DNA of 64,000 nt from assembly GCA_016125585.1 (NCBI GenBank), contig WGLL01000005.1, positions 744,001-808,000 on the forward strand, in the 5' to 3' direction. This document shows, piece after piece, positions 1 to 17,184 of this stretch (its first letter is position 1; each line of letters opens with the position of its first letter). The position numbers and the translations under genes are program-made. A model generated the notes under the pieces. The model saw only the letters and a program-made list of their open reading frames with translations. It searched no databases and was not told the DNA's origin. This DNA comes from Caulobacter sp. (GTDB lineage: Bacteria > Pseudomonadota > Alphaproteobacteria > Caulobacterales > Caulobacteraceae).

Positions 1-1331
1 GGGTTCCAGCCTTGCCGGCTGCCGCCGTCCGCCGCCCGTTCGCGGTCCCAAAGCCGGCCGGGCAGGGCGGGCGCGGTCGGGTCGGCGGCGAAGGGGCGCA
101 GGCCGTCGGCGCGTTCGATCCAGGTGCGTCCGCTGACCTCGAGCAAGGTTTCGCGCGGCTCGACGACCGGGACCGAGACGGACGCCGGGCCGCCGCGAAG
201 CCAGACCCTGTCGCCTGCGGCGGTGCGGACCTGCGCCACCGGTTGTCCCGCGCTCCAGCCGGCGCGGGCGATGGGGATCCTGCCGACCTCGGCGTCCAGC
301 CAGGGGCGCGCCTCGCCGAGCCGGAGTGGTTCGGCCGCTCCGCGACGAGCGAGAGTCCAGAACCGGCCGTCTGCCCACTCGCCGCCGGCGTCGCGGGCGA
401 AGGCGATCAGCCGACGGGAGTCGGGCGACCAGGACAGCAGGTGCGAGAGGAAGTCCTGGTCGGGCAGGGGCTCGACGGCCGCGCCCCGGTCGAGGTCGAC
501 CAGAAGCAGGCGACGCCGCCGGCTCGGCGTGCCGACGTCGACCGGCGTCTCCCCGCCGGCCTGCAGGTCCTCGGCGTTGAGCAGGGCCGCGACGGCGCCG
601 CCGTCCGGGGAGAGCTCCAGGTCGAAAAGCTCGCCGCGCGCCAGCACCCGCTCCTCGTCGCGGGCGAGATCGAAGAGGACCAGTCGCGCCGCGGCCGACC
701 GGTCGCGGCTGTCGCGCGCCGCGCCGCTGGGAATGACCACGGCGGACGGCGCGTGGCCGGCCGCGAAGGCCCGCCACAGCCCCGTCTTGCGGGCTTCGGT
801 CTGGGCGCCGAGGCGGAACACCAGGGGCAGGTCGCCGTCCGGACGGGCGATCGCCACCAGCTGCGTCTCCGAGCGCCAGGCGACGGTGCGGCCCAGTTCG
901 GTGAACTCCGGCGTCAGCGGCAGCCAGCGCACCTCGCCGGTGGCCAGGGTCATGACGCCCAGGGTGCGGGCGGTCTCGCGCAGACGGACGACCAGCATCT
1001 GCTCGCCGCTGGGCGAGAAGGGGCCGGAGACGTAGCCGCTGGCGTGGCCCGGGTCCTCCAGCCGGCGCACGAGGTCCCCGGCCGGCGTGTGGACCTCTAG
1101 CCCGCTGAGCAGGTGCGAGGTCATCAGCCCGAAGCGGTAGGTCGCCGCCGATGACCAGGCGGCCCGGCGCTCGACCACGATCCAGCGCCCGTCCGGGCTG
1201 ATCCGCACCGACCCCAGGCTTTCCTGGCCCAGCAGGGCCTCGAGGGTGACCGGCGCCCGCGCCTGGCCCATGACCGGGACCGCCGTCGCCAGCAGCGCGA
1301 CGGCCAACCCGCAACCCACTATGCGGCGCAT
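1..1331 (-). CDS. S9-like peptidase, N-terminal propeller part (partial, runs off left edge)
   Basis: About 443 codons are visible, from an ATG at 1331; the frame stays open to base 1, so the catalytic alpha/beta-hydrolase half is outside the window. Residues 1-25 look like a signal peptide ending near GQA. What follows resembles the beta-propeller of prolyl-oligopeptidase (S9) enzymes, with WD40-like strands such as ISPDGRW, LSPDGG and WSPDSRR. The start codon overlaps the stop of the upstream TonB receptor gene (ATGA), so the two are translationally coupled in a fecI-fecR-receptor-peptidase operon. The same gene order occurs around lasso-peptide isopeptidases of Caulobacter and Asticcacaulis, so a periplasmic enzyme opening or degrading an imported peptide is a reasonable inference. 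The catalytic Ser/Asp/His cannot be checked here, and a generic S9 peptidase is equally possible. Confidence 0.65.
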   Translation of the reverse strand, partial: MRRIVGCGLAVALLATAVPVMGQARAPVTLEALLGQESLGSVRISPDGRWIVVERRAAWSSAATYRFGLMTSHLLSGLEVHTPAGDLVRRLEDPGHASGYVSGPFSPSGEQMLVVRLRETARTLGVMTLATGEVRWLPLTPEFTELGRTVAWRSETQLVAIARPDGDLPLVFRLGAQTEARKTGLWRAFAAGHAPSAVVIPSGAARDSRDRSAAARLVLFDLARDEERVLARGELFDLELSPDGGAVAALLNAEDLQAGGETPVDVGTPSRRRRLLLVDLDRGAAVEPLPDQDFLSHLLSWSPDSRRLIAFARDAGGEWADGRFWTLARRGAAEPLRLGEARPWLDAEVGRIPIARAGWSAGQPVAQVRTAAGDRVWLRGGPASVSVPVVEPRETLLEVSGRTWIERADGLRPFAADPTAPALPGRLWDRERAADGGSRQGWN

Positions 1332-4297
1332 CACCAGGCCCGGGTCAGCTGCAGCGAGATGAAGCGGCCGATGACGTTGGTGTTGGCCGCGTCGTAGCCG
1401 ATGCCCTCGGGGGCGTTGTAGAAGGGCGGGTCGCGGTCGAAGGCGTTCTGGACGTTGAGCGCAATGGTCGTGCCCTGCAACGGGCCGGACTGCGGTTCAT
1501 AGCGGACCTGCAGGTCCAGGGTGACCCAAGCGTCGATCCGGGCGCCGGCCAGGTCTTCGTAGCCATCGACATAGTTGACCGAGGAGGACAGGCCCCAGTC
1601 GCCGCGCGACCAGGCCACCGTGCCCCGGCCGCGCAGCCCGACCGGATAGTTGGGACGGTTACGCAGAGACACGGCCGCCGACTTGGGCGTGGCCTGGCTG
1701 TCGAACCGGCCGAGATATGAGAAGGCCAGGTTCAGGTCGAAGGCGTTGGCCCCGACCTCGAAATCGTAGCCGGCGCTGACGTCCACGCCCTCGACCTCGA
1801 CGCGGGCAGTGTTGACGTAGCGGGCGTCGACGATCGCGCCATAGGACGTCGCTGGAAAGGCGTCGGCGAAGCCGGTGGTCGGCAGGTCGAGGATGGCCTG
1901 GACGGCGGCCCGGTCGTCGGCGTTGTTGAGCGGATCGACCAGCTGGATGAACGGCGACAGGGCCGGGTCGGTCAGGGCCGTGAGGATGTTCTCGAAGGTC
2001 GGCTGGCCGATCCGGTTGTCGAAGTCGGTCCGGAACCAGTTGGCGCTGAGGCGCAGGCCGTCGATGAAGGCGGGCCGATATTCCGCGCCCAAGGTCCAGG
2101 TGTCGGCCTGTTCCGGCTCCAGGTCCGGGTTGCCGCCGTAGAGGATCATCGACAGGACCTGCTGCGAGCCGCGCGGCAGGAAGGTCGGGCTGGCCCGCGC
2201 CGCGTCATTGAGCTCGCGCAGGGCCGGCGCCCGGTAGGAGGCGCCGTAGTTGGCGCGCAGGGTCAGGTCTCCGGTCGGCCCCCAGACGACCCCGATCTTG
2301 GGGCTGGTCGTCTGGCCGATGTCTTCATAGTCCTCGAACCGCGCCGCCATCGACAGCTCCAGCCGCTCGAAGCCGGGCCGGCGGTTGTCGGCCCCGAACA
2401 GCGGGATGCGCAGTTCGCCGAACACGGCCGCCACCCGCCGGCTCGAGTCCGTGGGGACGCCGGTCGTCGGCGTCACCCCCGAGGTGAAGCTGTCATTGCG
2501 ACGCCAGAAGGTCTCCTCGCGAAAGGAGAGCCCCGCGGCGAGCCGGAGCGGACCGCCGGGCAGGGTGAGGACGGTCCCGTCGACCTGCAGATTGGCCGAG
2601 GCGACGCTGGTTTCGCTCAAGGTGGCGGTGCGGCCCGAGCTGATGAAGGCGAGCACCGCCGCCGGGCTGCCGCCGCCGTCGCCGAACGGATTGAAATAGC
2701 CGTCGCGCGGGGCGCTGAACGGGGTGGCGGGGTTGTCGGCGATGGCGCCCAGGGCCTCGCGCAGGAAGGTCGAGTTCAGCGTGCCGCGGGTGCGGTTCTC
2801 GCCCGCCTCCGAGGCGTAGGCGACATAGGCGTCAAGCCGCCAGTCATCGAAGAGGTCGACCTTGACCCCGACCGAGGCGCCGAAGCTTTCGGCCTCGCCG
2901 GTGATCTCGGGATTGGGCAGGTCGTCCTCGAAGGAATAGGCGATGGTGTGCGAACTCGCCCCGGTCGGGGAGACGAAGTACGGATTTCCGCCGTTGACGG
3001 TCAACAGGGTGGCCAGCGGCGTCGAGACGGTCTCATATTCGCGCAGGCCGTAGCGGGCGTCGGCGGAGAGCACGACCCGCGCCCCGAGATTCTGCCGCAG
3101 CGCCGCGAACAGGCTGTGGCGGGTCTGTTGCGGCAGGACATTCATGCCGAGCCGCTGGTTGCTCAGATTGGTCTGGCCGGCGAGGAAGTCGCCGGGCTCC
3201 AGGTCCGTCCCGTTCTGGCCGGCGGGGATGGCGTAGGCCGAAACATAGCCGCCGCTGACCGGATCGAAGACGACGATGTTGCCGGGGCTGGCGTAGTTGA
3301 GCCGGCGGTCGGAACCGCCGCGCCATCGTAGGTCCGCGTCGCCGGCCAGGCGCCGTTCCGACACGGGCAGGGCGCCGCGCTCGTAGAACTCATAGGTTCC
3401 GAGCAGGCCGCCCGAGGACCAGCGCCGACCGAAGGTCTGGCCGAACTGGAACTCGTCGCTGGCGCCGTCGGCGGTCTGGCCGACCCGGACCCGGGTCTCG
3501 GCGCCGTCGTAGTCGTCGCGCAGGATGATGTTGACGACGCCGCCGACGGCGTCGGCGCCGTACAGGGCCGAGGCCCCGTCCAGCAGCACGTCGATGCGCT
3601 TGATGGCGCTGGTCGGCAGGGTCGAGACATCGGCGAAGTCGCCCATGGCGCCGGTGCCGGCCATCCGGCGACCGTTGACCAGCACCAGGGTAGCGTCGCT
3701 GCCCAGACCGCGCAGGTTGACGCCCGAGGCGAAGGTGCCGTTGGTGGCGCTGCGGTCGGCCCCGTTCTGCAGGGCCCCTTCATTGGCGGTTCCGCCGAAA
3801 TTCTGCGGCAGGGCGGCGAGGGCCTGGGCGACGGTGGCGTAGCCGCCGCGATCGATCTCCTCGCGGGTGACGATGACGACCGGGGAGGGGCCGTCGGCCA
3901 CGCCCCGGATCAGGCTGCCGGTCACCACCACCTCGTCCAGCATAGTGGGCTCGGCCTCCGGCGCGGCGCCTTCGGCCCGCGCGGCCGGGTCGTAGACGAC
4001 GAAGACGTTGGGGCGGCTGCGGCGCCAGGCGAGGCCCGAGTCCTTGAGCACCGCCGCCAGGGCCGCTTCGGGGGTGTGGGTTCCGCTCAGCCCCGGAGAC
4101 CGGCGCCCGGCGACGAGGGCGGCCGGATAGAGAATCTGCTGGCCGCTCTGCCGGGCAAAGGCCGGCAGCGCCTGGTCCAGCGGGCCGGGCGCGATCTCGT
4201 AGCGCCGGGCGGCCTCCTGCGCGGCCTGTGCGAAGGCGGGCGGCGCCGAGGCCAAAAGCAACGCGGCCAGCGCGGATGAACTCAAACCGATACGCAT
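1331..4297 (-). CDS. TonB-dependent outer-membrane receptor with N-terminal STN signalling domain
   Basis: The protein has 988 residues. A signal peptide (about 1-24) is followed by an STN domain (about 33-102; YEIAPGPLDQALPAFARQSG), the periplasmic domain by which FecA/FpvA-type transducers signal to FecR. The TonB box/plug region starts near 119 (LDEVVVTGS), with plug motifs such as DVLLDGASALYGADAVGGVV, and the beta-barrel ends in a terminal aromatic residue (TRAW). The gene lies 86 bases downstream of fecR and overlaps the start of the peptidase gene. Receptors of this type carry a large substrate across the outer membrane using TonB energy and report its presence to the FecR/FecI pair. 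The substrate is unknown; the attached peptidase suggests a peptide rather than a siderophore. Family assignment is secure; the ligand is inference. Confidence 0.93.
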   Translation of the reverse strand: MRIGLSSSALAALLLASAPPAFAQAAQEAARRYEIAPGPLDQALPAFARQSGQQILYPAALVAGRRSPGLSGTHTPEAALAAVLKDSGLAWRRSRPNVFVVYDPAARAEGAAPEAEPTMLDEVVVTGSLIRGVADGPSPVVIVTREEIDRGGYATVAQALAALPQNFGGTANEGALQNGADRSATNGTFASGVNLRGLGSDATLVLVNGRRMAGTGAMGDFADVSTLPTSAIKRIDVLLDGASALYGADAVGGVVNIILRDDYDGAETRVRVGQTADGASDEFQFGQTFGRRWSSGGLLGTYEFYERGALPVSERRLAGDADLRWRGGSDRRLNYASPGNIVVFDPVSGGYVSAYAIPAGQNGTDLEPGDFLAGQTNLSNQRLGMNVLPQQTRHSLFAALRQNLGARVVLSADARYGLREYETVSTPLATLLTVNGGNPYFVSPTGASSHTIAYSFEDDLPNPEITGEAESFGASVGVKVDLFDDWRLDAYVAYASEAGENRTRGTLNSTFLREALGAIADNPATPFSAPRDGYFNPFGDGGGSPAAVLAFISSGRTATLSETSVASANLQVDGTVLTLPGGPLRLAAGLSFREETFWRRNDSFTSGVTPTTGVPTDSSRRVAAVFGELRIPLFGADNRRPGFERLELSMAARFEDYEDIGQTTSPKIGVVWGPTGDLTLRANYGASYRAPALRELNDAARASPTFLPRGSQQVLSMILYGGNPDLEPEQADTWTLGAEYRPAFIDGLRLSANWFRTDFDNRIGQPTFENILTALTDPALSPFIQLVDPLNNADDRAAVQAILDLPTTGFADAFPATSYGAIVDARYVNTARVEVEGVDVSAGYDFEVGANAFDLNLAFSYLGRFDSQATPKSAAVSLRNRPNYPVGLRGRGTVAWSRGDWGLSSSVNYVDGYEDLAGARIDAWVTLDLQVRYEPQSGPLQGTTIALNVQNAFDRDPPFYNAPEGIGYDAANTNVIGRFISLQLTRAW

Positions 4298-4383
4298 GGT
4301 CTTCCCCCTGTTTTCTACCCGTCGTCATGCGGGTTGGGGAAGAGACGACCGGGCGCGCGGGGCCCCCTAAGTCCGTAGGCGAT

Positions 4384-5373
4384 TTATTTTGAGGCGCCGT
4401 CCGAGAGGATGATGCTCCCGTCCGCCGAGCGGGTCGCCCGCAGGGGATAGAGATCGGTCAGGGCGGCCACGAAGCCATCGACGTCGCCGGTGTCGAAAAC
4501 GCCGCTCACCCGGATGGCGGCGAACTCGTTCGCCTGCAGCTCGATCGGGCGCGGGCTGTAGCGGTTGACCTCGGCGACGGCCTCGCCGATCGGCGTCTCT
4601 TGGAAGGTCAGGCGGCCGCTGGCCCAGCTCGTCGCCGTCGGCACGTCGACGACGGCGACCGCCGGGCGCGAGGCGGCGGTCAGGACCTGCTGCCCCGGCG
4701 CCAGCGACCAGGACCGATCGGCTCCTTTGCCGTCCCGCACGGCCACGCGGCCCTCGATGAGAACGACCCGGGCCCCGGAGCCGAGGCGGCGCACGTCGAA
4801 GCGCGTGCCGAGCGCCGTCACCCGCGTGTCGCCGGCGGTGACCACGAACGGCCGGTCCGCGTCGCCCTCGACGTCGAAGAGGGCCTGGCCCTCGACCAGC
4901 ACGACCGATCGCCGGTCGCGGCCGAAGCGCACCTCGACCTTGGAAGCGGTGTCGAGCGTGATCCGCGAGCCGTCGTCGAGCCGCACCGTGCGCTGCTCGC
5001 CGATCGCGGTCGCGTATGGCGTCGGCCGCGAGAGGCTCCAGACGGCGATGCCGACGACCAGCACGGCCACCAGAGCGCCGGCCGCGCCCAGCGGCTTGAG
5101 GACGTCCGAGAACAGCGCCCGGGCTCGGGCGGGGGCAGAGGCAGCGTCTCTGGCTTGTTTGGTCAGGGCGGCGATCTCAGGATCGTCGGCCAGGGTCTCG
5201 GTCGCCTCCCAAACCGCCTGCATGCGGTCGTAGGCCTCGGCGTTCTCTGGAACGCGGCGCCAGGCGCTGAACGCCTTGATGTCGGCGGCCGAGACCTTGC
5301 GCTGGTTCAGACGTGCGAACCAGGAAGCGGTCTCCTTGCGTCGGATGTCGGCGTCCTCGTCGACCGTCATCAT
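4384..5373 (-). CDS. fecR: FecR-family anti-sigma factor / signal transducer
   Basis: The protein has 329 residues. Residues 14-57 form the cytoplasmic FecR N-terminal domain (ETASWFARLN, WRRVPENAEAY). One membrane helix follows at about 94-114. The periplasmic FecR domain has the usual pattern (GEQRTVRLDDGSRITLDTAS, VTALGTRFDVR), and the C-terminal STN-like DUF4974 segment (LTFQETPIGEAVAEVNRYS) is thought to meet the receptor's signalling domain. It starts 7 bases after the sigma-factor stop, as expected for a fecI-fecR operon. By family knowledge it holds FecI inactive until the outer-membrane receptor binds its substrate. Nothing unusual in length or motifs. Confidence 0.93.
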   Translation of the reverse strand: MMTVDEDADIRRKETASWFARLNQRKVSAADIKAFSAWRRVPENAEAYDRMQAVWEATETLADDPEIAALTKQARDAASAPARARALFSDVLKPLGAAGALVAVLVVGIAVWSLSRPTPYATAIGEQRTVRLDDGSRITLDTASKVEVRFGRDRRSVVLVEGQALFDVEGDADRPFVVTAGDTRVTALGTRFDVRRLGSGARVVLIEGRVAVRDGKGADRSWSLAPGQQVLTAASRPAVAVVDVPTATSWASGRLTFQETPIGEAVAEVNRYSPRPIELQANEFAAIRVSGVFDTGDVDGFVAALTDLYPLRATRSADGSIILSDGASK

Positions 5374-5380
5374 GTCCCGC

Positions 5381-5869
5381 CTAAACGTCCAGCCGCGACG
5401 CGCAGTGTTCGAGCGCCTTCGACATCCGCCACTCGACGGTCTTGACGCTGATCCCTCGCGCGCGGGCGATCTCCGGGTAAGTCATACCGCCAAAGCGGTT
5501 CAACACGAAGATGTCGCGGTAGAGCGGCGGCATGGTCAGAACGATCTGCTTGAGCAGGACCTGGTCCAGCTGCGAAGCGGCCTCGGCTTCGGCCGCCGGT
5601 TGCTGGTCGAGGAATCTGGCGCGGCGTGCCCTCCGGCGGCGGTCGTCCCGCACGAGATTGAGCGCCACCCGCAGCAGGAACGCCTTCGGATGGCGGATGC
5701 TGTCGCCGTCATAGGGGGCGATCCGCAGGTAGGTTTCCTGGACCATGTCGGCCGCTTCGTCCGGCCCGAGCCGGGTCCGCAGACGCCCGTCGAGCCAAGT
5801 CGCATAGCGGCGGAACAGGCTGTCCAGCCTGTCCGCTGCTCCCGCCTCCAGCTCCTTGGCGTTGCTCAC
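5381..5869 (-). CDS. fecI: FecI-type ECF RNA polymerase sigma factor
   Basis: The protein has about 162 residues. Region 2 is present (ADMVQETYLRI) and region 4 is a clear helix-turn-helix (MTYPEIARARGISVKTVEWR). The frame is open much further upstream, but the start was set at GTG 5869 because GGAGGAG lies just ahead of a GTG-GTG pair (5872 and 5869) and homologues are about 160-170 residues long; GTG 5872 is the alternative. It is followed at once by fecR and then by the receptor. FecI-type factors direct transcription of their own receptor operon when the extracellular ligand is bound, so an inducible loop is inferred. No promoter could be assigned with confidence. Confidence 0.9.
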   Translation of the reverse strand: MSNAKELEAGAADRLDSLFRRYATWLDGRLRTRLGPDEAADMVQETYLRIAPYDGDSIRHPKAFLLRVALNLVRDDRRRRARRARFLDQQPAAEAEAASQLDQVLLKQIVLTMPPLYRDIFVLNRFGGMTYPEIARARGISVKTVEWRMSKALEHCASRLDV

Positions 5870-6360
5870 CACGCTCCTCCGGCCACAAGGGCGAGGCCGG
5901 AATCCGCGGGCGCGACAGCTCAGCCGATCTGCGCCGTGCGACGCACGGGCTCGGCCGCTGGACAAGCGACGACCGCGCGGCGCGCGGGTCGTTGGGTTTT
6001 GATATCGCACAGGGGATTCCAAGCCCCTATCGGCGCGAACGCCGACTCGGCGACCATGAATCAAATGGAATCAACACGCAAGGCGGAGGGGTCGGGCGTT
6101 GGAATCCTCTGCGATCGAGAGGCCCGCTACTTCGCCGCGGAGCGCCGCCTCCGCCATTGGCGAACCCCGGCTCATGCCCCGCGCCTATCTCACGGCGCCC
6201 GACGCGGTCGGTTTAGGCGCCGTCGGGACCGGCCGCAAGCGATGCCGTCCAACCGGACCGGAGAAGCCAGTTCCCGACCCGCAAGAAAGTCGCGGACAGC
6301 CCGCAAGACTCTGACGTTGCTTGCAAAACCGACGCGATTTACGGGGAGTGGGGCGCAACC
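5870..6360. other. Intergenic region between divergent fecI and luxR-like genes
   Basis: About 490 bases with no convincing gene. Several short open frames exist on both strands, but they lack a credible ribosome-binding site or recognisable protein features. I looked here in particular for a lasso-peptide precursor (short leader, Thr two residues before a Gly/Ala core start, Asp/Glu at core position 7-9) and found none. The region must hold the fecI promoter and the promoter of the small regulator at 6361. Confidence 0.6.
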
Positions 6361-6612
6361 ATGAGGTTATGCTCCATGCATCCGGAACTCATCCCGAAAC
6401 CCGAAGAACCCCCGGCGCTCAGCCAGCGCGAAGCCGAATGCCTGGCCTGGGTCAGCCGCGGCAAGAGCTCCTCCGACATCGGCGCCATTCTTGGGCTGTC
6501 GCCGCGAACGGTCGACAGCTACCTCGAAAAGGTCTGCGCCAAGTTGCGCGTTCGCACCCGCATCGAGGCGGTCGCGCTGGCGGTCCGCACGGGTCTGATC
6601 GATCCGGCCTGA
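6361..6612 (+). CDS. Single-domain LuxR-type DNA-binding protein
   Basis: An 83-residue protein that is almost entirely a LuxR/GerE helix-turn-helix (about residues 19-79: LSQREAECLAWVSRGKSSSD, LGLSPRTVDSYLEKV). There is no receiver or autoinducer-binding domain, so it is either a stand-alone regulator or the surviving end of a longer one; I could not see a degraded sensor domain upstream. The ATG at 6361 follows a purine-rich GGGGAGTGGGG stretch; an ATG at 6376 is possible. It is divergent from the fecI operon. Its targets are unknown. Confidence 0.8.
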   Translation: MRLCSMHPELIPKPEEPPALSQREAECLAWVSRGKSSSDIGAILGLSPRTVDSYLEKVCAKLRVRTRIEAVALAVRTGLIDPA

Positions 6613-7006
6613 AAGGGAGGGGGCGGGCCTGGAACTTCTGTACGGAAGCCCGGCGTTTCACAGCCGATCGCCGCCGACGTCAAAGACGTCCCCTGGCTCA
6701 AGATCGACCGCTATCGTTCCGGAACCCGCCGCGCTCTTCCTACACCCTGTCTGCGGTTGGCGCATGTGTATGGGTCGATTGGTTCTTGGCGTGCCTGCTG
6801 GGGAGTTCCCGCTCGGCCAACGCTGAGTTTATCCGGGCGCAGCGCTTCTACCTGCAAGCAGACCGGTCTGTTCGTTCTGATCAGCCGGCGGAGGAACGAA
6901 GCGGAAATCTGTGGTCACCCAGTTTCCTCAACGTTCCCCAGAGTGGCCTTCACGCGGATGGTGGGGCCCGACAATCTGATCGGGTGGCCGAGCTTGGAGG
7001 ACCAGC
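6613..7006. other. Non-coding stretch at the left edge of a lower-GC segment
   Basis: About 390 bases between the small LuxR gene and the symporter. I see no gene with a supported start and no tRNA. Base composition begins to fall from about 6750 onward, marking the likely left border of a foreign segment that continues to about 10960. The symporter's ribosome-binding site (TTGGAGGA, about 6994-7001) lies at its right end. Confidence 0.5.
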
Positions 7007-8437
7007 ATGCCCATAGATGCATCTGTCGCCGTATTCGTAGCGACGCTCGCCGCGACGTTTGTCGCGTCCCTTCTGGGCAGAATACATGCGAAGCGCTCCC
7101 GATCAGAAGGCTTGGCTGGCGAGCGGCTTAACAAGTGGCTTGTCGGCCTGAGCGCCGGAGCGACTGCCAACTCGGGATTTGTGGTGACCGGGGCGGTGGG
7201 TCTTGGCTACGCGTTCGGCGCACAATGGCTGTTGCTTCCCCTTGCTTGGCTGATCGGAGACATGTTGTTTTGGACGTTGTTTCCAGGCCGAATTAATCGT
7301 CTTGGCCGGGAGGCGAACGCCTCTACACTGACGGACGTGCTTGGGGCAGGGATGCGGCCAGTCGCCAAGCGGGTACTCCAAATCCTAGCATCCATAGTGA
7401 TTCTCGTTTGCCTGACGGGGTATGTAGCTGCCCAGTGGATTGCCGGTGAGAAGTTCCTCGAGGGCGCGTTTGGGTTCGAGGGATACGTGGCGCTGGCGAC
7501 TTTCGCAGGCCTCATCGTTCTCTACACGGCGATTGGGGGGTTTAGGGGCTCAGTTTACGCCGATTCCTTTCAGGCAGTTTTGCGCGTGGTCGGGACTGCT
7601 CTAGCTCTCGGCGCGATCATTATCGTGGCGAGGCAAGATGGTGGCGCGTTCGCAGCGAATATTGGAGCCGCCGGCGCGGGCTTCCTGCAGATTTTGCCAA
7701 ATGCCTCGTGGTTGGCCGGGGGAGCGTTCGTCGCTGGCTATGCTGCCGCCTCGCTAGGATTTGGGTTGGGCCAACCGCAAATCGTCTCCAGATACTTGGC
7801 CGGAGCAAGTCCAGAGGAAACCCGCGCAGCCTGGTGGATTTACATCCTCTTCGTTCAGTTCACTTGGATCGCAATGACGGTCTTCGGGATGATGCTGCGC
7901 GGGGTCATGCCTGCCCTAGGCGACCCTGAGATGGGGCTCAGTATCTTCTTCAGAACTTACGCAGGGCCTCTTCTCACGGGACTAATCGTAGCCGATGTCT
8001 TTGCGACAATAGCGGCCACATCGAACAGCTTGCTTGTCGCGATGGCTCAGACGGTAAAGCACGACCTTTTCGGCCAACGGGCCGGAACGGTCGGTCTACC
8101 CCTTTGGCCGATCACACTCGTGGTGGGCGGTCTAACAATGGCGCTCGCGTCCATGCTGAACGCAACCGTGGTCGGCTTGGCGCTATCTTCGGTCTCGCTC
8201 ATGGGCGCGGGGCTCGCGCCGGCGATGCTCATACGACTGCTGAGCTGGAAGCAGAACGACTTCTCGCTGATCGCATCCATCATTGCAGGCCTAACAGTGG
8301 CAATCGCCTGGAAACTGTCAGGCATTGGGGCCACGCTCAATGAAGCTCTTCCTGGCCTCGTTGCCGGCTTGCTAGCAAATTTTCTCGTCTGGGTTCTTAC
8401 TCACGGCCGCACAACTAAAATGGGCGGGCGGGGTTGA
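7007..8437 (+). CDS. Sodium:solute symporter (SSS family)
   Basis: The protein has 476 residues and about 12-13 hydrophobic helices, with the SSS fold signature seen as LSAGATANSGFVVTGAVGLG near residue 48 and YTAIGGFRGSVYADSFQAV near residue 175, the latter matching the conserved sodium-site segment of PutP-like transporters. The ATG is preceded by GGAGGA. The stop overlaps the start of the EgtD-like methyltransferase (TGATG), implying joint translation. By family it imports a small organic solute such as an amino acid, betaine or carboxylate using sodium. The substrate cannot be read from the sequence, but the partner gene suggests an amino acid or its methylated product. Codon use is less GC-rich than in the flanking genes. 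Confidence 0.85.
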   Translation: MPIDASVAVFVATLAATFVASLLGRIHAKRSRSEGLAGERLNKWLVGLSAGATANSGFVVTGAVGLGYAFGAQWLLLPLAWLIGDMLFWTLFPGRINRLGREANASTLTDVLGAGMRPVAKRVLQILASIVILVCLTGYVAAQWIAGEKFLEGAFGFEGYVALATFAGLIVLYTAIGGFRGSVYADSFQAVLRVVGTALALGAIIIVARQDGGAFAANIGAAGAGFLQILPNASWLAGGAFVAGYAAASLGFGLGQPQIVSRYLAGASPEETRAAWWIYILFVQFTWIAMTVFGMMLRGVMPALGDPEMGLSIFFRTYAGPLLTGLIVADVFATIAATSNSLLVAMAQTVKHDLFGQRAGTVGLPLWPITLVVGGLTMALASMLNATVVGLALSSVSLMGAGLAPAMLIRLLSWKQNDFSLIASIIAGLTVAIAWKLSGIGATLNEALPGLVAGLLANFLVWVLTHGRTTKMGGRG

Positions 8438-9873
8438 TGAGCGGGATCACAGATTGGGACGAAAAGATTGCTGTCTTGAAGGTGCTGTTGAACGCAGTGG
8501 GCCTGATCGACATTACTGACGCCGTCTATCCCAGCGACGACGAGGCAGCAGAATCTCTCCGGATAGCCGGTCTGTTTCGAAAATGGAGAAGGCACGTCCC
8601 GCGCCAGCGAAATGTGCGATTCTTCGACGATCTAGCGCGAAGGCTCGGCTGCCCGCCAGAGGTGTCGGGCATAAGGCTGATAGCGTCGGACATAGATTCG
8701 TTTATTGCCCTCCTCCCGGCGGCCTCCCAGGCGGCTGCGAAGTCTTCACTGTGTTCTATTCAAGATGGGACGCCTCCCGACTTGCTTGTAAGGGCTCCCC
8801 GGTCTTTAGTCATGGATGAAGACTCCGTGATAAAACAAGCCGATCCCGTACGCCATCGTTTTGCAGAATCCAAGGATCCCCAGTTCGCACCCATGCAGTT
8901 CTTAAGAGAAGGGGTCCTTCAGTCTGTACGAGATGGAATAAAGGCAGGGAAGATTGATCAAAAGCACTATTACCTCGCGCCAGACGCGACGGAAATATGG
9001 TACAATTTGGTCGGATCGGAAGCGTATCCAACGTATGACATATGTAAGACCGGACTTCGTGCTCTAGCGAATTCGACGGAATGGACGGAGGCTATCGAAA
9101 AACACGTTCCTAGTACGGTAGTCATGCTGGCGGGCGGTGGTTCGCCAACAAAGGATCTTGTAATTCTTCAGGGTCTTCTGCAGCAGCAATGTCTAAAGAA
9201 CGCATACCTTACATATCTACTTGTCGATATCAGCCCATACATGTTGGTAAACTCATTCCGTTACCTCGACCGCTTGAAGGGAACGATACCTGGAGGAGAG
9301 CGGGTCGATGTAGGAATTATATCCGCTGATATGCTCGGTCTTCACGAGCGAGGTTCCTCGTTTCGGTCTACTGGAAACGTTCTCTTCGGCATAACTGGTG
9401 GCACGATCGGAAACATAAGCGAGAACGCTTTCTTCGCTTCTCTAAATAGCATGAGCGATAAGGGTGATTTGCTTATACTAAGTGCGGATACTATTGGAGG
9501 AGACTCGTTCCAAGACGTAGAGAGTCGCCTAAAAGGGAAATATGATCACGAGCATATGAGAAAGTTCATATCTCCGGCGATGCGAATGCTTATGGCTGAT
9601 CTTGACCTCAAGGAGTCTCTGAGCGATCTCTACGGTCGGATGGACATTTCGTTAGCCATGGGTCACGAAGCTGGCCTCAGCGATGTTGCCGGCAGCATGT
9701 CAGTAAGAATTTCGTTGAACGAGGACGGCCGAGACATCACCCTCCTCAGTTCGACCAGGTACGACCAAGACCGCCTACTGTCGTTTGCCAAAGGAAAGGG
9801 ATGGTCTCTGATCGTCGCTACGCACAGCCCGCTTGACGCAAAGTACGTCCAATTTTTCCTCCGGAAAGACTGA
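8437..9873 (+). CDS. EgtD-like SAM-dependent amino-acid N-methyltransferase
   Basis: The protein has 478 residues. After about 150 N-terminal residues of unknown kind comes a segment matching the histidine N-alpha-methyltransferase (EgtD, Methyltransf_33) fold. HYYLAPDATEIWYNL plus EAYPTYD (about 177-200) parallel the EgtD start; MLAGGGSPTKD (about 230-240) is the SAM-binding loop in place of ELGSGTS; YLLVDIS (about 260) is next; and FGITGGTIGN (about 318-327) matches the GSTIGN substrate loop. Near the C-terminus, where EgtD has its imidazole-binding Glu in a T-E-x-S context, this protein has L-L-S-S, so histidine is probably not the substrate. The gene overlaps the symporter stop (TGATG; ATG at 8437). 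Codon use is AT-richer than the surroundings (ATA, AGA, TTA appear), a sign of transfer. The fold is fairly sure; the substrate is unknown. Confidence 0.72.
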   Translation: MSGITDWDEKIAVLKVLLNAVGLIDITDAVYPSDDEAAESLRIAGLFRKWRRHVPRQRNVRFFDDLARRLGCPPEVSGIRLIASDIDSFIALLPAASQAAAKSSLCSIQDGTPPDLLVRAPRSLVMDEDSVIKQADPVRHRFAESKDPQFAPMQFLREGVLQSVRDGIKAGKIDQKHYYLAPDATEIWYNLVGSEAYPTYDICKTGLRALANSTEWTEAIEKHVPSTVVMLAGGGSPTKDLVILQGLLQQQCLKNAYLTYLLVDISPYMLVNSFRYLDRLKGTIPGGERVDVGIISADMLGLHERGSSFRSTGNVLFGITGGTIGNISENAFFASLNSMSDKGDLLILSADTIGGDSFQDVESRLKGKYDHEHMRKFISPAMRMLMADLDLKESLSDLYGRMDISLAMGHEAGLSDVAGSMSVRISLNEDGRDITLLSSTRYDQDRLLSFAKGKGWSLIVATHSPLDAKYVQFFLRKD

Positions 9874-10015
9874 CCAATTCCGACTTATTAGGCTTTGTTC
9901 CTATCGCGGCCGACTCGTAGATTCCGGCACATACTAGGAACTTGTCGTATTCCGACCCGTGGCCTCGCGGTTCAGGCAAGGTTCAGGTTTGCTCCTCACC
10001 GAGAGGAGACGGGCT

Positions 10016-10498
10016 ATGACCACCGCGCAGTTTCTCGACCTTCTGCCGAAGCTGAGCATTTTCGCAGTCCTCCTGGGGGCGGCGGTGGCGGCTCTGGCGC
10101 TCTACCTGAATCGGCGCCATGAGCGGCGGAAGCTGCTGGCCGACGAGTTTCAAAAGTTCTGGGCTTCGGATCTCGCCCATCGAGTCCATCAAATTCTGGC
10201 GGCCACGGCCACGGACCTCACTTCAGATCCAGCCACAAGGAAGTTCACGCTCGAGACGCTGAGCGCTCTTCAGCGTATCGCCTTCCAAGTGTCATCTCGA
10301 CCCGCCGACTGGGATCGGGTCCTGAGGTATGACCAACATCAACAGTTGGTTGATGCCGTCACGGTCTGTGGGCCGCTCCTGCAGATTCTTAGAAATACCA
10401 CGGTCCCAGTCGAAGTGCGTGCATGGAACGGGCATCGGGCCCGTGCCATGTCTGCTCTACTGCGGGCGCTGAGAGTCAGGCTGGACCGTCCGAAATAG
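10016..10498 (+). CDS. Hypothetical protein with one N-terminal membrane helix
   Basis: About 160 residues from the ATG at 10016, chosen because GAGAGGAG sits just upstream; the open frame extends to 9959 without a better site. Residues 12-32 form one hydrophobic helix (LSIFAVLLGAAVAALALYL), followed by a charged cytoplasmic-looking stretch (NRRHERRKLLADEFQKFW) and a mostly helical remainder. I recognise no family. It lies about 140 bases downstream of the methyltransferase inside the lower-GC segment and could be a third member of that cassette or unrelated cargo. Confidence 0.6.
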   Translation: MTTAQFLDLLPKLSIFAVLLGAAVAALALYLNRRHERRKLLADEFQKFWASDLAHRVHQILAATATDLTSDPATRKFTLETLSALQRIAFQVSSRPADWDRVLRYDQHQQLVDAVTVCGPLLQILRNTTVPVEVRAWNGHRARAMSALLRALRVRLDRPK

Positions 10499-11038
10499 GC
10501 GCTGGTCGTCGTGCAACCATTCGGCGCGAGGAATGGCCTCTGGCGGTCTTGCGTGACCGCTACAGCTGTACGACTTTTGTGATAATATGAAAGAGGTAAC
10601 TCACTCTCGTACTTCGATAGCTTCTCGGGTATTCGCCGTTGTCAATACATCTCGAAAGATGTCGTGATCACGCGGTTTTTACATCGAGCTATATCGTCAG
10701 TGTTTTCAGAATACTAGAATTTCGTCGGCTTGCTGATCGGCATAGTTGGCCGCGCATACAAAAAAGGCGCTTAAAAACAAGCACCTAAGAGATTTCGAGT
10801 AATCGAGTGGGAATAGTCCGGTCCTTTCGAGGCCTTTCGGAAACGCCCTCTAAGTCACTGACAAAAAAGTAAACTCTCTCGAAATGCTTCTGAGCCTTTC
10901 AGAGGGGCTTGAAAGCGTGGCGCCGTCATTTCTGACGGTATGGCCCGTTTAGGTTCGGGCGATCATCAGCGCCGCTTCCCTTGACGACGCCGGCGACGCG
11001 GCGCGGGAGCTCGAGCCGTTGCGCATAAGCTTGGCGGC
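10499..11038. other. AT-richer non-coding region at the right edge of the low-GC segment
   Basis: About 540 bases with no supported gene. Composition is distinctly AT-richer than the rest of the window until about 10960, where high GC resumes. It contains a hairpin with a T-run on the minus strand (see 10759-10786). No tRNA, integrase or insertion-sequence ends were recognised. Confidence 0.55.
10759..10786 (-). terminator. Probable Rho-independent terminator
   Basis: Read on the minus strand, AGGTGCTT and AAGCGCCT form an 8-bp stem with one G-U pair around a short loop, followed directly by TTTTT. It lies about 250 bases past the stop of the membrane LuxR/cytochrome operon (11039), which it could terminate. 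Confidence 0.45.
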
Positions 11039-11584
11039 TCAAGGCCTCTGGGGAGCGGCTGGGTCGGCCCGACGGTCCGATGCGGTGACGCAGGGCGCCG
11101 CGATCAGGTCCTCAAGGAACAGGCTCGCCAGCGCCGGGCGCGAGTTCACGCCGGCCTTCTGATAGACCCGCGCCAGCTGCGCCCGCACCGTGCCGGGCGC
11201 CGCCTCTCGCAGGCGGGCGATCTCGGCGATGTCGCAGCCCTTGAGCGCGAAGACCGCCACATCGGCCTCTGCCGGGGTGAGGCCCCACTCCCTGGCGCGC
11301 GCCTCGATCACCTCGCTGAGCGCGCCCGCCGCCACCGCCAGCGCGGCGCTCTTGCGCCGGTCCGCGGCGAGCAGGCCGCGCAGCTGGAGCAGGCCGATCG
11401 CGACGCCGGCCAGCAGGCCCAGCGCCGCGAGCGCTTCGACGGCGACGTGGGCGCTGACGCCCTCGGCCACAACGTCGCCAGCAGCATCGGCGACGAAGAA
11501 GGCCACGGCGAGGGACTGTAGGACCACCACGCCGGCGATGAGGCCGGCGTGGGGCTCAAGTCCGAAAGGGGGCCGTCGGCTCAT
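11039..11584 (-). CDS. Membrane-anchored LuxR-type transcriptional regulator
   Basis: The protein has 181 residues. Two hydrophobic helices (about 13-33 and 47-67) are followed by a charged linker and a C-terminal LuxR helix-turn-helix (about 100-162: LTPAEADVAVFALKGCDIAE, then APGTVRAQLARVYQKAGV). Its ATG overlaps the stop of the cytochrome b561 gene (ATGA), so the two are made together. The arrangement suggests a regulator tethered to the inner membrane that may read a state of the neighbouring cytochrome, but this is inference from gene order only. Confidence 0.82.
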   Translation of the reverse strand: MSRRPPFGLEPHAGLIAGVVVLQSLAVAFFVADAAGDVVAEGVSAHVAVEALAALGLLAGVAIGLLQLRGLLAADRRKSAALAVAAGALSEVIEARAREWGLTPAEADVAVFALKGCDIAEIARLREAAPGTVRAQLARVYQKAGVNSRPALASLFLEDLIAAPCVTASDRRADPAAPQRP

Positions 11585-12246
11585 TCCCGCGGGCGGCGGT
11601 TGCGTCCGCCCGGCAGCATGGCCATGAGGATTCCCCGGCCGCTGCGCCGCGTCTCGAACGCCACGCCCAGCAGATGCAGCGCGGCCAGGACGAAGAGCAG
11701 GTTCGCCGCCGCCTCGTGGACCTCTTCCATCAGTTCGTCGCCCTCGCCACCTGCGCCGTCTTCGGCGCCGTCCTTGTCGGCGTCATCGTCATCCGCTTCT
11801 TTCGCCTCTTCGTTCGCCTCGGCGGCCGGACCCGACCGTTGCCCAGTAGACGCCGCCTCGGGGGCCGGTGTCGAGATGCCCGGAAGCCCGGTCATGGCGA
11901 TCCCGGAGCCGATGACGACGGCGAGCGTCGCCCACAGGGCGTAGACCATCAGCGCGCCGAGGGGGTTGTGCGACCGGTGCGCGGTCTTCTCGCCGCGCGC
12001 GATCTCCCGCACATGGGCCGCGGCTTTGCCGAGACTGGGGGGAAAGGCCGTAAACCTTGCCTCGGGCGAGCCGACCAGACCCCAGACCCAGCGCAGCGCC
12101 AGCAGGGCGGCGACGCCGTAGCCGACCCAAAGGTGCGCCCCGGAGCCTTCCCTGGTGAATACGCCGTTGATCAGGACGCCGGCCGCCACGCCCCAATGGG
12201 TCAATTGAACCAGCGGATCCCACCGCCGGGGCTGTACAGTCTGCAT
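11581..12246 (-). CDS. Cytochrome b561 family membrane protein with acidic insertion
   Basis: The protein has 221 residues with the four-helix layout of bacterial cytochrome b561/hydrogenase b-type subunits: QLTHWGVAAGVLING (His17), LWVGYGVAALLALRW, NPLGALMVYALWATLAVVIG (after His93) and EEVHEAAANLLFVLAALHLL (His177, His191), which supply candidate haem ligands. Between helices 3 and 4, residues about 142-175 are a strongly acidic insertion (EADDDDADKDG), probably on the periplasmic side. Such proteins pass electrons in the inner membrane, often to a diheme or other c-type partner; none is encoded next to it. It is the first gene of a two-gene operon with the membrane LuxR protein. Confidence 0.87.
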   Translation of the reverse strand: MQTVQPRRWDPLVQLTHWGVAAGVLINGVFTREGSGAHLWVGYGVAALLALRWVWGLVGSPEARFTAFPPSLGKAAAHVREIARGEKTAHRSHNPLGALMVYALWATLAVVIGSGIAMTGLPGISTPAPEAASTGQRSGPAAEANEEAKEADDDDADKDGAEDGAGGEGDELMEEVHEAAANLLFVLAALHLLGVAFETRRSGRGILMAMLPGGRNRRPRE

Positions 12247-12482
12247 GGTCGTCTCCTGTGATCGGATCGACCTTCAACTCGCGCCGATCCGCCGGAACGG
12301 CCATTGCAGCCGCGCTTACGGCGCGCGTTGTAAGCGCCTGCTGATCGCGGTCAGGAAACCTCCAGGGACTGGCGCGGCCTGTTCTGTTTCCTGCGACACG
12401 GCGAAGACTTTCATCTCGGACCGGGATCGAATTTTGATCGCCGCGCCAGGCGATCGCCCGACATCTCAAGGCCAGGGCCTGA
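12247..12482. other. Upstream region of the cytochrome b561 operon
   Basis: This is the left part of the 373-base gap between 12246 and 12620. It holds the cytochrome ribosome-binding site (GGAGACG on the minus strand, near 12247-12255). No gene is supported. The right part of the gap contains the rpiB remnant listed separately. Confidence 0.5.
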
Positions 12483-12641
12483 GTCGCGGGCATCCGCCGC
12501 AGCGTTTGCGCCGATGTCTGGTCGGCGGAAATGATCCGCCGGCACAACGACGCCAATATGCCGGCCATCGGCGCGAAGGTCGTCGACGAGGCGCTTGCGC
12601 TCCGGGTCGTCGAAGCGCCTCAGGAACAGCCTTCGACGTAA
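12483..12641 (+). pseudogene. C-terminal remnant of a ribose-5-phosphate isomerase B-like gene
   Basis: This frame has no start codon and is closed upstream by a TGA at 12480. It reads V-A-G-I-R-R-S-V-C-A-D and then SAEMIRRHNDANMPAIGAKV before stopping at TAA 12639. It matches the C-terminal half of RpiB/LacAB isomerases (GIRAAVC, SAxxxRxHNDxNVLxxGxRVV). The N-terminal two thirds are absent, and the last bases overlap the 3-prime end of the convergent lipoprotein gene. It is a gene fragment with no expected activity. Confidence 0.65.
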
Positions 12642-13237
12642 CCCAGCACCGGCATCATGCCGACGTGGATCAGCTTGACCTTGCCGTCCCGGCCGATCTC
12701 GAAGCGCAGGGCGGGCTCGCCGCTCTCCGCGTTGGGCGCGGTCAGGTATTTGGCGGGGGCGGCCTCATACTTGTGCGGCGTCTCGCGGAAGCCGCCGAAC
12801 CATGACTTGACCTCGGCCTCGGTCGCGCCGACGCCGATGCCTTCGGCCAGTTTCACATCGGAGCGCTGGCCGACGGTGATGCGCTGGACCTTGCCGCCGA
12901 CGACGATGGCGTAGACGCCCGGGTAGTCCGGAGAGGTGATGGTGCGGCAGGCGTCGCTCTCCTGGGCGCCGCGTTCGGCCCATGAACTCCCGGCCGGCGG
13001 GGGCTGTCCGATCCTCAGATCGCCGAGGCCCTCGAGGCCAAGGGTTCGGTCGGAGCGCACAGGCGTGGACGGCGCCGGCGCGGTCGGGGCGGGCGTCGCC
13101 GGGGGCGGGACTGGCGAGTCCGGGACCGATCCCGTGGCGGAAGGCGCGGGCGCGGGCTCCTTCGGTTCGGGGGAGCAGGCGGCCAGGGTCAAGGCGAGGG
13201 CCAGGGCGGAGACGGCGAAGAGTGAGGTGTTCGGCAT
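12620..13237 (-). CDS. Putative lipoprotein of unknown function
   Basis: The protein has 205 residues. A lipoprotein signal (TLAAC, Cys21) is followed by a Pro/Ala-rich spacer to about residue 60 and a globular region of about 140 residues with repeated G-x-G-D and beta-strand-like patterns (GLGDLRIGQPPPAGSSW). The C-terminal YVEGCS and an internal DACRT could form a disulfide. The start is the ATG at 13237. Neighbours give no hint of function. It is anchored in the envelope by inference from the lipobox. Confidence 0.75.
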   Translation of the reverse strand: MPNTSLFAVSALALALTLAACSPEPKEPAPAPSATGSVPDSPVPPPATPAPTAPAPSTPVRSDRTLGLEGLGDLRIGQPPPAGSSWAERGAQESDACRTITSPDYPGVYAIVVGGKVQRITVGQRSDVKLAEGIGVGATEAEVKSWFGGFRETPHKYEAAPAKYLTAPNAESGEPALRFEIGRDGKVKLIHVGMMPVLGYVEGCS

Positions 13238-13396
13238 CTTCCGTGAACGACGCTCGTCCCGCTTGGTTGCGTTCGGTGGGCGCCCGGGACCCGCGATTGC
13301 GGTCGCCCGACGTGACGGCCATAGTCGATCCGCGACCTGTCAACGACCTTGCGGCCCCTCGCGACGTCGAGGGCGGGTTCGCGAAAGGGGCGAAAG

Positions 13397-14032
13397 ATGA
13401 GCAGGCCACGAACGTTACGCGGCGGGGCCATCGCCGGCTTTGAGATCGCGGTCAACGGCAAGGTGCTGGACAGCAGCGTCCAGGTCGAAGGGATCACTGT
13501 CCGGCTCGCTCTGGACCAGGCCCAGACAGCGAGGATCATCCTGCTCGACGGCGACGCCGCAGGCGGCGCCTTTACGCTCAGCGAGAGCAGCGCCTTCATG
13601 CCCGGAGACTCCCTCACCATATCGATCGGCTACGACGGCCAGCTGAAGCGGGTCTTCTCGGGCGTTGTCGGCGGGCTGGGGATACAGGCGTCCGAGTCCT
13701 CCGGCGGCCGGTTGATTGTATCGGCGACCGGAGAGACGCCGTCGCCAGCGTCGGGATCGTCACCGGTCATGGCCCTCGTCTACGGCGTGTCGATCTTCGA
13801 GCTGGACCTCGCCATCGCGCCGGGGAGCCACGGCCATTGGGCGGAGCCGGCGACCTGCGACGGGAGCTTGCGCATCCAGGGCAGCGCCCTGGCGACGCCG
13901 GGCTGCACGGTCACCCTGAGCGGCCTGGGGGCGCGGTTCGAAGGCGATGCGCCGGTCCATGGGGTCCAGCACGACCTGGCCGAGGGAAACTGGCTCACCC
14001 GGCTCGCGTTTGGCGAAGCTGACCTGACCTGA
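13397..14032 (+). CDS. Miniature phage-tail-hub (gpD/VgrG-like) protein
   Basis: The protein has 211 residues. The first 105 or so resemble the N-terminal domain of late-control-D/VgrG hub proteins of contractile injection systems (FEIAVNGK, ILLDGDAA, FTLSESSAFMPGD, then ISIGYDGQLKRVFSGVV). The remainder (residues about 135-208) resembles the end of the tail-hub part of these proteins (GSLRIQGSALATPG, LSGLGARFEGDAPVHGVQH, LAEGNWLTRLAFG). The central hub segment and the gp5-like spike are missing; full-length relatives are two to three times as long. The ATG at 13397 was chosen for the similarity start. No sheath, tube or baseplate genes lie nearby, so it is a stand-alone or relic protein. Confidence 0.68.
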   Translation: MSRPRTLRGGAIAGFEIAVNGKVLDSSVQVEGITVRLALDQAQTARIILLDGDAAGGAFTLSESSAFMPGDSLTISIGYDGQLKRVFSGVVGGLGIQASESSGGRLIVSATGETPSPASGSSPVMALVYGVSIFELDLAIAPGSHGHWAEPATCDGSLRIQGSALATPGCTVTLSGLGARFEGDAPVHGVQHDLAEGNWLTRLAFGEADLT

Positions 14033-14047
14033 GCCCTGGGACGCCTG

Positions 14048-16234
14048 TCAGGAGACGGCGGGCAATCTGTCCAGATGCTTGTCCAGGGTGACCGGGTAGT
14101 CGCGCACCCGCACGCCGGTCGCGTTGTAGACCGCGTTGGCCACCGCCGCGCCGACGCCGCAGAGGCCGAGCTCGCCGATCCCCTTGGCCTTCATCGGCGA
14201 GACCTTGTCGTCGGCCTCGTCCAGGAAGATCACCTCCTGATGGGGGATGTCGGCATGGACCGGCACCTCGTAACCGGCGAGGTCGTGATTCACGAAGTAG
14301 CCCAGGCGCTTGTCGACCTCGAGTTTTTCCATCAGGGCCCCGCCGACCCCCATGGTCATGGCGCCGATGACCTGGCTGCGGGCGGTGACCGGGTTGAGGA
14401 TGCGGCCGGCGGCACAGACGGCCAGCATGCGCCGGACGCGGATCGCGCCGGTGTAGCGGTCGACGCCGACCTCGACGAAGTGTCCGCCGAAGGTCGACTG
14501 CTGATAGGTCTCGTCCAGATCGCCCCAGGTCATGGCGTCCTCCGCGACGAGTTCCCCGGCCTTGGCGGCTTCGGCGAGCGGCGCCGACCGGCGGGCGCCC
14601 TTCACCTTGCCGCCCTCGAAGACGGCCTCGGCCGGATCGAGACCCAAGTTGCCGGCGACCGCCTCGCGCAGCTTGACGCAGGCCGCGTAGACGCCTGAGG
14701 TCGAACTGCCGGCTCCGAACTGGCCGCCGGACCCGGCTGAAACCGGAAAGCTGGAATCGCCCAGTTTCACCGTCACCCGGTCGAGCGGCACGCCCATCAT
14801 CTCGGCCGCCGTCTGGGCGATGATGGTGTAGCTGCCGGTGCCGATGTCGGTCATGTCGGTCTCCACCGTGATCCGGCCATCGGTCGCCAGCCGGACGCGG
14901 GCCCCGGAGGTGACATTCAGATTGTTGCGGAAGGCCGCCGCCACGCCCATGCCGACCAGCCAGCGGCCATCGGTGACGCTGGCGGGCCTGGCGTTGCGGC
15001 GGGCCCAGCCGAACCGCCGGGCCCCGTCCTCAAGGCAGCGAACCAGGTTGCGCTGCGAGAAGGGCCGGTCCGGGTTTTCCGGATCGACCTGGGTGTCGTT
15101 CTGCACCCGGAAGGCGATGGGGTCCATGCCCAGTTTCTCGGCCATCTCGTCCATGGCGATTTCCAGCGCCATCATGCCGGAGGCCTCGCCCGGCGCCCGC
15201 ATGGCGTTGCCCTCGGGCAGGTTGAGCACGGCCAGGCGCAGGGAGGTCAGGCGGTTGGCGCCGGCGTAGAGCAGGCGGGTCTGGTTGACGGCGGTCTCGG
15301 GGCCGCCGTCCGGCAGGTCGCCGGAGCTGCTTTCATGGGCGATGGCGATGATCTCGCCGTCCGGCTTTGCGCCGATGCGGATGCGCTGGCGGGTGGCCGG
15401 ACGGTGGGTCGAGTTATTGACCAGCATCGGCCGGGTCAGGGCGACCTTGACCGGTCGCTGCACCAGCCGGGCGCCGAGCGCCGCCATCAGGGCGTCGGCG
15501 CGGAGGAACAGCTTTCCGCCGAAACCGCCGCCGATATAGGGCGAGATCAGCCGCACCTTGTCCTTGGGGATGTTCAGGGTCTTGGCCAGGTCGCCGCGCC
15601 CCCAGTCGATCATCTGGTTGGAGGTCCAGACCGTCAGCTGGTCGCCGTCCCAGGCGGCGAGGGTGGCGAAGGGCTCCATCATCGCGTGGCTCTGATCGGG
15701 CGTGGTGTAGAGGGCGTCGAGCTTGAACGGCGCGGCGTCGAAGGCCTGTTCGAACTGGCCGAGCCGGTCCTCGTCGGGCGCCGGCGCCTTGTCGAGGGCG
15801 GCGGCCAGATCAAAGTCGCCCGGCGTGCGGTTGTAGTCGACCTTGACGAGGGCGGCGGCGGCGCGGGCCTGCTCAAAGGTCTCGGCCACCACCACGGCGA
15901 TGGCCTGGTGATAGTGATCGATCTCAGGCCCGCCGAGCAGCGGCGCGGTGTTGTAGTCGCCCTTGCCGAGCTTGCCCGCTTCCCTGGCGGTGACGATGCC
16001 GAGCACGCCGGGGGCGGACCTGGCTGCGCCGAGGTCCATCGACCGGATGCGCCCCTTGGCGATGCCCGCGCCGATGACGTGGCCATAGGCGGCGGTCGGC
16101 GCCTCGCGATGATGCTCATAGGCATAGGTCGCCCGGCCGGTGGTCTTCAGCGGGCCGTCGATGCGGCTGTGCGGCCGCCCGACCACGGTCATGCGGTCGA
16201 TGGGGTTGTCGCCAGCAGGGGTGTCGAACTTCAT
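14048..16234 (-). CDS. paoC: Aldehyde oxidoreductase molybdenum-binding subunit (PaoC-like)
   Basis: The protein has 728 residues, the usual size for PaoC/YagR. It has the xanthine-oxidase-family pattern: [20 protein letters not shown] at the start, [10 protein letters not shown] and [19 protein letters not shown] in the cofactor region, and a GIGELGLCG segment near the C-terminus carrying the catalytic glutamate. It is the last gene of a three-gene operon in which each start overlaps the previous stop by 4 bases. The enzyme oxidises aldehydes to acids in the periplasm with molybdopterin-cytosine-dinucleotide; export is as a folded complex with the Tat-tagged PaoA. The exact substrate cannot be read from sequence. 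Confidence 0.92.
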
Positions 16235-17184
16235 GCCGCCCTCGTTTCATCCAGAATGGCCGCAAGGGTTCGCTCGACGAGCGGGATCTTGAAGGCGTTG
16301 TCGGGCGCCGGCCGGGCGTCGGCCAGCAGGCGGGACGCCACGGCGCGCGCGCCATCGGGCAGCTGGGCCTCCGCGGCCTCGCTTCTCCAGGGCTTGTGCG
16401 CCACCCCGCCGACGGCGACGCGGCCCGCGCCGTTCTTGTGGACAATGGCCGCCACCGACACCAGGGCGAAGGCGTAGGAGGCGCGGTCGCGGACCTTCTC
16501 ATAGACATGCCGGCCGCCCACGGGCTTTGGCAGGGTGACGGCGGTGATCAGCTCGCCGGCGGCGAGGGCGGTCTCGATGTGCGGCGTCTCGCCGGGCAGG
16601 CGATGAAAGTCGGCGATGGGAATGGCGCGGGTCTCGCCCCGCGGCGTGATCGTCTCGACCGTCGCATCGAGCGCCCGCATGGCCACGGCCATGTCGGAGG
16701 GGTGGGTGGCGATGCAGGCGTCGCTGGTTCCGATCACCGCAAGCTGCCGGGCAACGCCGCCGATGGCCGCGCACCCGGCGCCGGGGGTGCGTTTGTTGCA
16801 CGGCTGGTTGGTGTCGTAGAAATAGGGACAACGGGTCCGCTGCAGCAGATTGCCGGCGGTGGTCGCCTTGTTGCGCAGCTGGCCCGAGGCGCCGGCCAGC
16901 AGGGCGCGGCTGAGCACCCCGTAGTGCCGGCGCACGGTCATGTCGGCGGCGAGATCGGTGTTGCTGACCAGGGCGCCGATCCGAAGGCCTCCGTCATCGG
17001 TCTTTTCGATGCGGTCGAAGCCCAGGCCGTTGACGTCGATCAGATGGCCGGGCGTCTCGATTTCCAGCTTCATCAGGTCGAGCAGATTGGTGCCGCCGGC
17101 GATGAATTTCGCGCCCGGCGTGGAGGCGGCCCTGGCCGCGGCGTCCGGGGCGGAGGCGGCGCGCTCGTAGGTGAAGGCCTTCAT
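16231..17184 (-). CDS. paoB: Aldehyde oxidoreductase FAD-binding subunit (PaoB-like)
   Basis: The protein has 317 residues. The FAD-binding motifs of the xanthine-dehydrogenase medium subunit are present ([14 protein letters not shown] near 26, [20 protein letters not shown] near 109). The cysteine-rich loop (C-P-Y-F-Y-D, Q-P-C-N-K-R, P-G-A-G-C) is the hallmark of PaoB-type subunits, which hold an extra [4Fe-4S] cluster. It overlaps paoA upstream and paoC downstream by 4 bases each, so all three are co-translated. Confidence 0.93.

Follow-up and report, generated by a model that had tools for sequence, protein, structure and literature searches.

A sodium:solute symporter gene overlapping a divergent EgtD-like methyltransferase gene in Caulobacter sp.: a candidate unit for amino acid uptake and N-methylation

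We identified in a 64-kb stretch of Caulobacter sp. DNA (hereafter, the window) a gene for a sodium:solute symporter (SSS/SLC5; SSS) whose stop codon overlaps the start of a gene for an EgtD-like (Methyltransf_33) SAM-dependent methyltransferase. Tentatively, and with confidence that falls a little short of even, we interpret the two genes as a rare mobile module that couples import by the SSS to the N-methylation of an amino acid other than histidine. The carrier would draw on the gradient of sodium (or protons) to bring in an amino acid or a comparable zwitterion. The EgtD-like enzyme, co-translated with the carrier, would then methylate the alpha-amine of this compound once or more in the cytoplasm, with SAM as the donor. 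The product would be an N-methyl amino acid or a betaine, not hercynine. We infer the mobility of the unit, its transport direction, substrate, product, catalytic activity and physiological role, including the import of the methyltransferase substrate by the SSS and a betaine as the product. The features that define the pair are the following:

6996..7000, + strand: Shine-Dalgarno-like GGAGG, six bases 5' of the SSS start (read directly)
7007..8437, + strand: SSS gene, 476 aa (SSF, 110.2 bits)
8435..8439, + strand: TGATG overlap of the SSS stop and the methyltransferase start (read directly)
8437..9873, + strand: EgtD-like (Methyltransf_33) methyltransferase gene, ATG at 8437, 478 aa (PF10017, 30.1 bits; hhalign)

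Direct reading confirmed the initial annotation of a complete SSS gene joined at its stop to the methyltransferase start: TGA (8435-8437) and ATG (8437-8439) have one A in common, a one-base overlap, and both frames are intact. The methyltransferase start is backed by a homologue from Asticcacaulis, which retains G-I-x-D-W near the N-terminus. The assignment of the pair to a lower-GC segment also held, as the GC3 values of the methyltransferase (0.55) and the SSS (0.66) are the two lowest among the 53 gene-like window ORFs of at least 150 aa (mean, 0.857; sd, 0.079). Because of this low GC3, a foreign origin of the pair is likely on compositional grounds. Within the low-GC island there is also a 179-aa ORF (9959-10498, + strand; GC3 0.68) with one apparent membrane segment and no Pfam match; a counterpart is absent from the 20-kb Asticcacaulis stretch that we compared. 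Upstream of the island is a small stand-alone ORF of the LuxR-type helix-turn-helix class (6361-6612, + strand; GerE, 59.2 bits), possibly a regulator or a remnant. Genes for a TonB receptor with an STN domain, FecR and an ECF sigma factor follow one another at 1331-6064 (- strand), an ordinary surface-signalling set. Near the pair we recognised no gene of a mobile element, the repeats around the low-GC island were weak and revealed no insertion ends, the window contained no tRNA, and PADLOC returned nothing for it.

Both genes are also carried by a second member of the family Caulobacteraceae, Asticcacaulis sp. AC460 (NZ_AWGD01000020.1), in reversed order: the methyltransferase comes first and is followed, after a 109 bp gap, by the SSS ORF. 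Adjacency in other genomes, which the initial annotation had treated as decisive for the pairing, was thus borne out in the sole other carrier found, a single case. The SSS proteins of the two genomes are 52% identical and the methyltransferases 25%; at that level of identity, the two enzymes may not share one substrate. The Asticcacaulis methyltransferase (450 aa) scored 50.6 bits for Methyltransf_33 (cutoff, 23). A blastp comparison (E<=1e-5) of the ORFs in window positions 1-20000 with those of the 20-kb Asticcacaulis stretch retrieved only the SSS and the methyltransferase as common to both. As these are two examples only, the adjacency could be the legacy of one ancestral unit. The arrangement also bears on whether the genes lie together by chance, in a low-GC insertion of foreign origin and without a joint function. 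Although a patchy distribution and a foreign composition would fit such an origin, the genes adjoin in two genera, in opposite orders and with no other common neighbour, and their frames are open, intact and overlapping by one base in the window. We therefore regard chance proximity as most improbable.

The distribution of the two genes is consistent with a rare unit. The methyltransferase was detected in 2 of 249 genomes of the family, own genome included, and the SSS subfamily (E<=1e-50) in 2 of 249 as well, the identical two (own genome and Asticcacaulis sp. AC460). Assuming independence, the chance of both genes picking the same pair of genomes is 1 in 30,876. In genome draws that overlap one another (family, genus, class and phylum), the methyltransferase was found in 1 of 385 class genomes and 1 of 398 phylum genomes, and the SSS profile in 1 of 75 genomes of the own genus (E<=1e-50) and 1 of 299 of the phylum (E<=1e-60), always the own genome; the methyltransferase profile matched 1 of 25 genomes of the genus of Asticcacaulis sp. 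AC460, AC460 itself. We also scanned a collection with one genome per species (84,980 species) using two short patterns, an approach low in sensitivity that returned 109 stretches with one confirmed relative, the Asticcacaulis sp. AC460 contig. Scanning the collection with the methyltransferase alone retrieved no relative. Searches of plasmids, phages and viral contigs with the methyltransferase returned nothing, as did a search of viral contigs with its Asticcacaulis homologue; the SSS had no match in plasmids or phages at E<=1e-40, and neither the SSS profile nor the own EgtD matched viral contigs. Based on the patchy distribution and the composition, the two-gene unit is probably mobile.

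To place the pairing in context, we surveyed other genes of the Methyltransf_33 family, which matched in 77 of 314 phylum genomes. We analyzed 38 of these loci: the 30 best, each with ~1.5 kb on either side, and 8 in longer stretches, most of them around divergent, broken or second copies. An SSS profile (A8) detected no SSS protein among their 964 ORFs (E<=1e-3), and 27 of the 38 had an egtB-like ORF. The same profile recovers two distant SSS proteins of E. coli, PanF (2.2e-51) and ActP (7.4e-36). An SSS gene is, therefore, not a usual neighbour of the Methyltransf_33 fold in this control, in which divergent members are under-sampled, as the whole-genome Pfam search did not pick up even the window methyltransferase. 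In the phylum sample, the one Methyltransf_33 gene that is both divergent and near-complete (G884; 44.9 bits) had no SSS neighbour in a 10-kb stretch. The survey also brought up a second EgtD-like paralogue in genome G758 (L051:4517-5464, - strand) with Trp, Ala and Asp at the positions of EgtD Tyr39, Met252 and Glu282. It adjoins a methyltransferase-like ORF, not an SSS, and is another candidate for altered specificity. Another locus (L050, G905:C8; match 10211-10995) has an EgtD-like gene in pieces, the longest of which carries one in-frame TGA.

The assignment of the window enzyme to the EgtD fold is supported by profile comparisons. It passes Methyltransf_33 with 30.1 bits (cutoff, 23) over residues 217-458 only, and hhalign related both pair enzymes to an alignment of EgtD-like proteins with E=3.5e-10 and a probability of 96.7. 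This alignment (32 rows made, 31 reported by hhalign) was assembled from best-scoring matches and is, thus, biased to true EgtD. The residues of interest map to the window as follows:

9412..9414, + strand: Asn326, equivalent of EgtD Asn166 (three alignments)
9541..9543, + strand: Tyr369, equivalent of EgtD Tyr206 (three alignments)
9745..9753, + strand: Leu437-Ser438-Ser439, with Leu437 at EgtD Glu282 (two alignments; gap in the third) and Ser439 at Ser284 (three alignments)

In the EgtD of M. tuberculosis, Asn166 holds the substrate amine, and Tyr206 and Ser284, together with Tyr56, hold the carboxylate (PMC8593015). Both pair enzymes retain the equivalents of Asn166, Tyr206 and Ser284, which are invariant in the 31 full-length EgtD-like rows (a count that excludes the 82-aa fragment L017). 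At the Glu282 position, these rows have Glu (30 rows) or Asp (one row); the Asticcacaulis enzyme, too, has Leu there, with a gap in the hhalign alignment. In work by Vit et al. in 2015, EgtD Glu282 reportedly contacts the imidazole, and the changes in PDB 4pip, an EgtD variant, were reportedly made to favour tryptophan. The printed alignments of 4pip and 4pim show these to be M252 to V and E282 to A. Thus, 4pip resembles the window enzyme in having no Glu282 (Ala in 4pip, Leu in the window enzyme), yet it is a changed laboratory protein, and the Met252 equivalent of the window enzyme depends on the alignment. A review also relates EgtD structures to L-tryptophan specificity (PMC9103826). Because of the Leu at the Glu282 position and the tryptophan precedent of 4pip, we favour a substrate amino acid whose side chain is not that of histidine and is perhaps hydrophobic. 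Two other assignments were set aside. A reading of the Met252 position as Val or Ile was demoted, because one alignment places I/V there and another a different residue. Equivalents of Tyr39 and Tyr56 chosen by eye were dropped after a segment scan put the best matches at other places and the best score was attained by 142 and 31 of 1000 shuffles, so that they did not stand clearly above chance. The AlphaFold model of the methyltransferase was unusable (mean pLDDT, 37) and a phmmer search of PDB sequences with the protein returned no match at E<=1.

The genetic context further separates the pair enzymes from EgtD. The own genome carries an ordinary egtB-egtD pair (egtD, 349 bits) at a separate locus ~524 kb away on the same contig and, therefore, ergothioneine synthesis does not need the window methyltransferase. 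As the initial annotation had proposed, egt partners are missing nearby: tblastn searches with the own EgtB found no egtB in the 64-kb window or in the 20-kb Asticcacaulis stretch. The pair enzymes are like EgtD (PF10017; PDB 4pim, 4uy6 and 7scf) in their Methyltransf_33 domain and amino acid backbone-binding residues, and the ergothioneine locus likewise holds an EgtD-type methyltransferase. They differ from EgtD in their length (478 and 450 aa, where the own EgtD has 316 aa and the EgtD chains in the PDB have 321-329), in their extra N-terminal region, in the Leu that replaces Glu282 in two of three alignments and in having an SSS rather than egtB as partner. The separate canonical EgtD, the N-terminal extension and the Leu at the Glu282 position thus support, at the level of sequence, the earlier view that the window enzyme may not be an ordinary histidine methyltransferase. 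A greater departure is conceivable, with the enzyme methylating, for instance, the end of a peptide, a different amine or a nucleophilic sulfur or oxygen instead of the amine of a free amino acid. This would agree with the loss of the glutamate, with an N-terminal region that has no recognised fold and with the low (25%) identity between the pair enzymes, but not with the retention in both proteins of equivalents of the Asn, Tyr and Ser with which EgtD binds the backbone of its amino acid substrate. We consider such targets distinctly unlikely and favour a free amino acid as the substrate.

The extra N-terminal region was delimited by comparison with the own EgtD:

8437..8898, + strand: N-terminal region of about 110-160 residues that the own EgtD (316 aa) lacks; the 3' limit is approximate

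Its first part recurs in the Asticcacaulis homologue, to which it is 26% identical over 117 columns, and the conserved region has tryptophan and basic residues. Such features could be expected if the methyltransferase served chiefly to regulate the carrier or to act as its sensor, through an N-terminal region that binds DNA or protein. A precedent for joining transport and sensing is CbrA, which combines an SSS domain with a sensor kinase (PMC7918813). Against this regulatory role, searches of the region against Pfam, PHROGs and PDB sequences returned no significant match to a helix-turn-helix or any other family, and we regard the role as very unlikely. An initial helix-turn-helix reading of the region, made by eye, was dropped for the same lack of support in the three databases.

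The carrier belongs to the SSS family and is distinct from its sodium/proline symporter, PutP. The window SSS passes SSF (PF00474) with 110.2 bits (cutoff, 22.8) over residues 36-417, and its profile reaches the solved SSS structures weakly (SGLT1, E 8.4e-4). Like the proline transporter PutP, it retains the G-Q-P-x-I-x-x-R motif and the equivalent of Thr341. Unlike it, the window SSS is 27% identical to the E. coli protein and scores 122.3 bits for the PutP equivalog TIGR02121, below the cutoff of 515.5, and is therefore not PutP itself. Further, the position of PutP Asp55 is Ala in the window SSS and Gly in the Asticcacaulis protein, and Tyr248 falls at an alignment gap. Asp55 and Tyr248 are described as crucial to PutP function (PMC7918813), and the replacement of one and the gap at the other make proline an unlikely substrate, as predicted from the alignment. 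The substrates of the SSS family further include sugars, vitamins and ions (PMC7918813), a point that weighs against the proposed import of an amino acid.

The direction in which the two activities are connected could also be the reverse of the one proposed, with the SSS re-taking or scavenging the methylated product, such as a betaine-type compatible solute, rather than the substrate of the enzyme. The presence of both genes in one pair of genomes, adjacent in each, fits this equally, and a normal cytoplasmic amino acid could serve as the substrate. Moreover, PutP-type carriers such as OpuE can contribute to proline accumulation under osmotic stress (PMC7918813). Yet inspection by eye of the ORFs around the pair revealed no osmotic-stress gene in either genome, and we judge product re-uptake to be unlikely. 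We retain substrate import followed by N-methylation as the preferred function of the pair.

The novelty of the pair is in the unusual combination of known parts, not in a new kind of system. We found no paper linking EgtD with a sodium solute symporter in the open-licence literature, and publication elsewhere is possible. The most ambitious form of the proposal is that the pair is an unrecorded mobile uptake-methylation module. In it, a dedicated SSS carrier would supply an environmental amino acid to an enzyme of a new subfamily derived from EgtD, set apart by an N-terminal domain of its own and by a hydrophobic pocket, and the product would be a bacterial amino-acid betaine, or an N-methyl amino acid, not described so far. 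We hold this form to be somewhat unlikely in full. Relatives of EgtD are readily mistaken for ergothioneine genes. If our interpretation is correct, the pair would represent a bacterial branch of the EgtD fold that acts on another substrate and is served by a carrier of its own, and would provide a simple test case for shifts of substrate choice in the EgtD pocket. It would also offer a possible route to a new betaine-type metabolite in the Caulobacteraceae.
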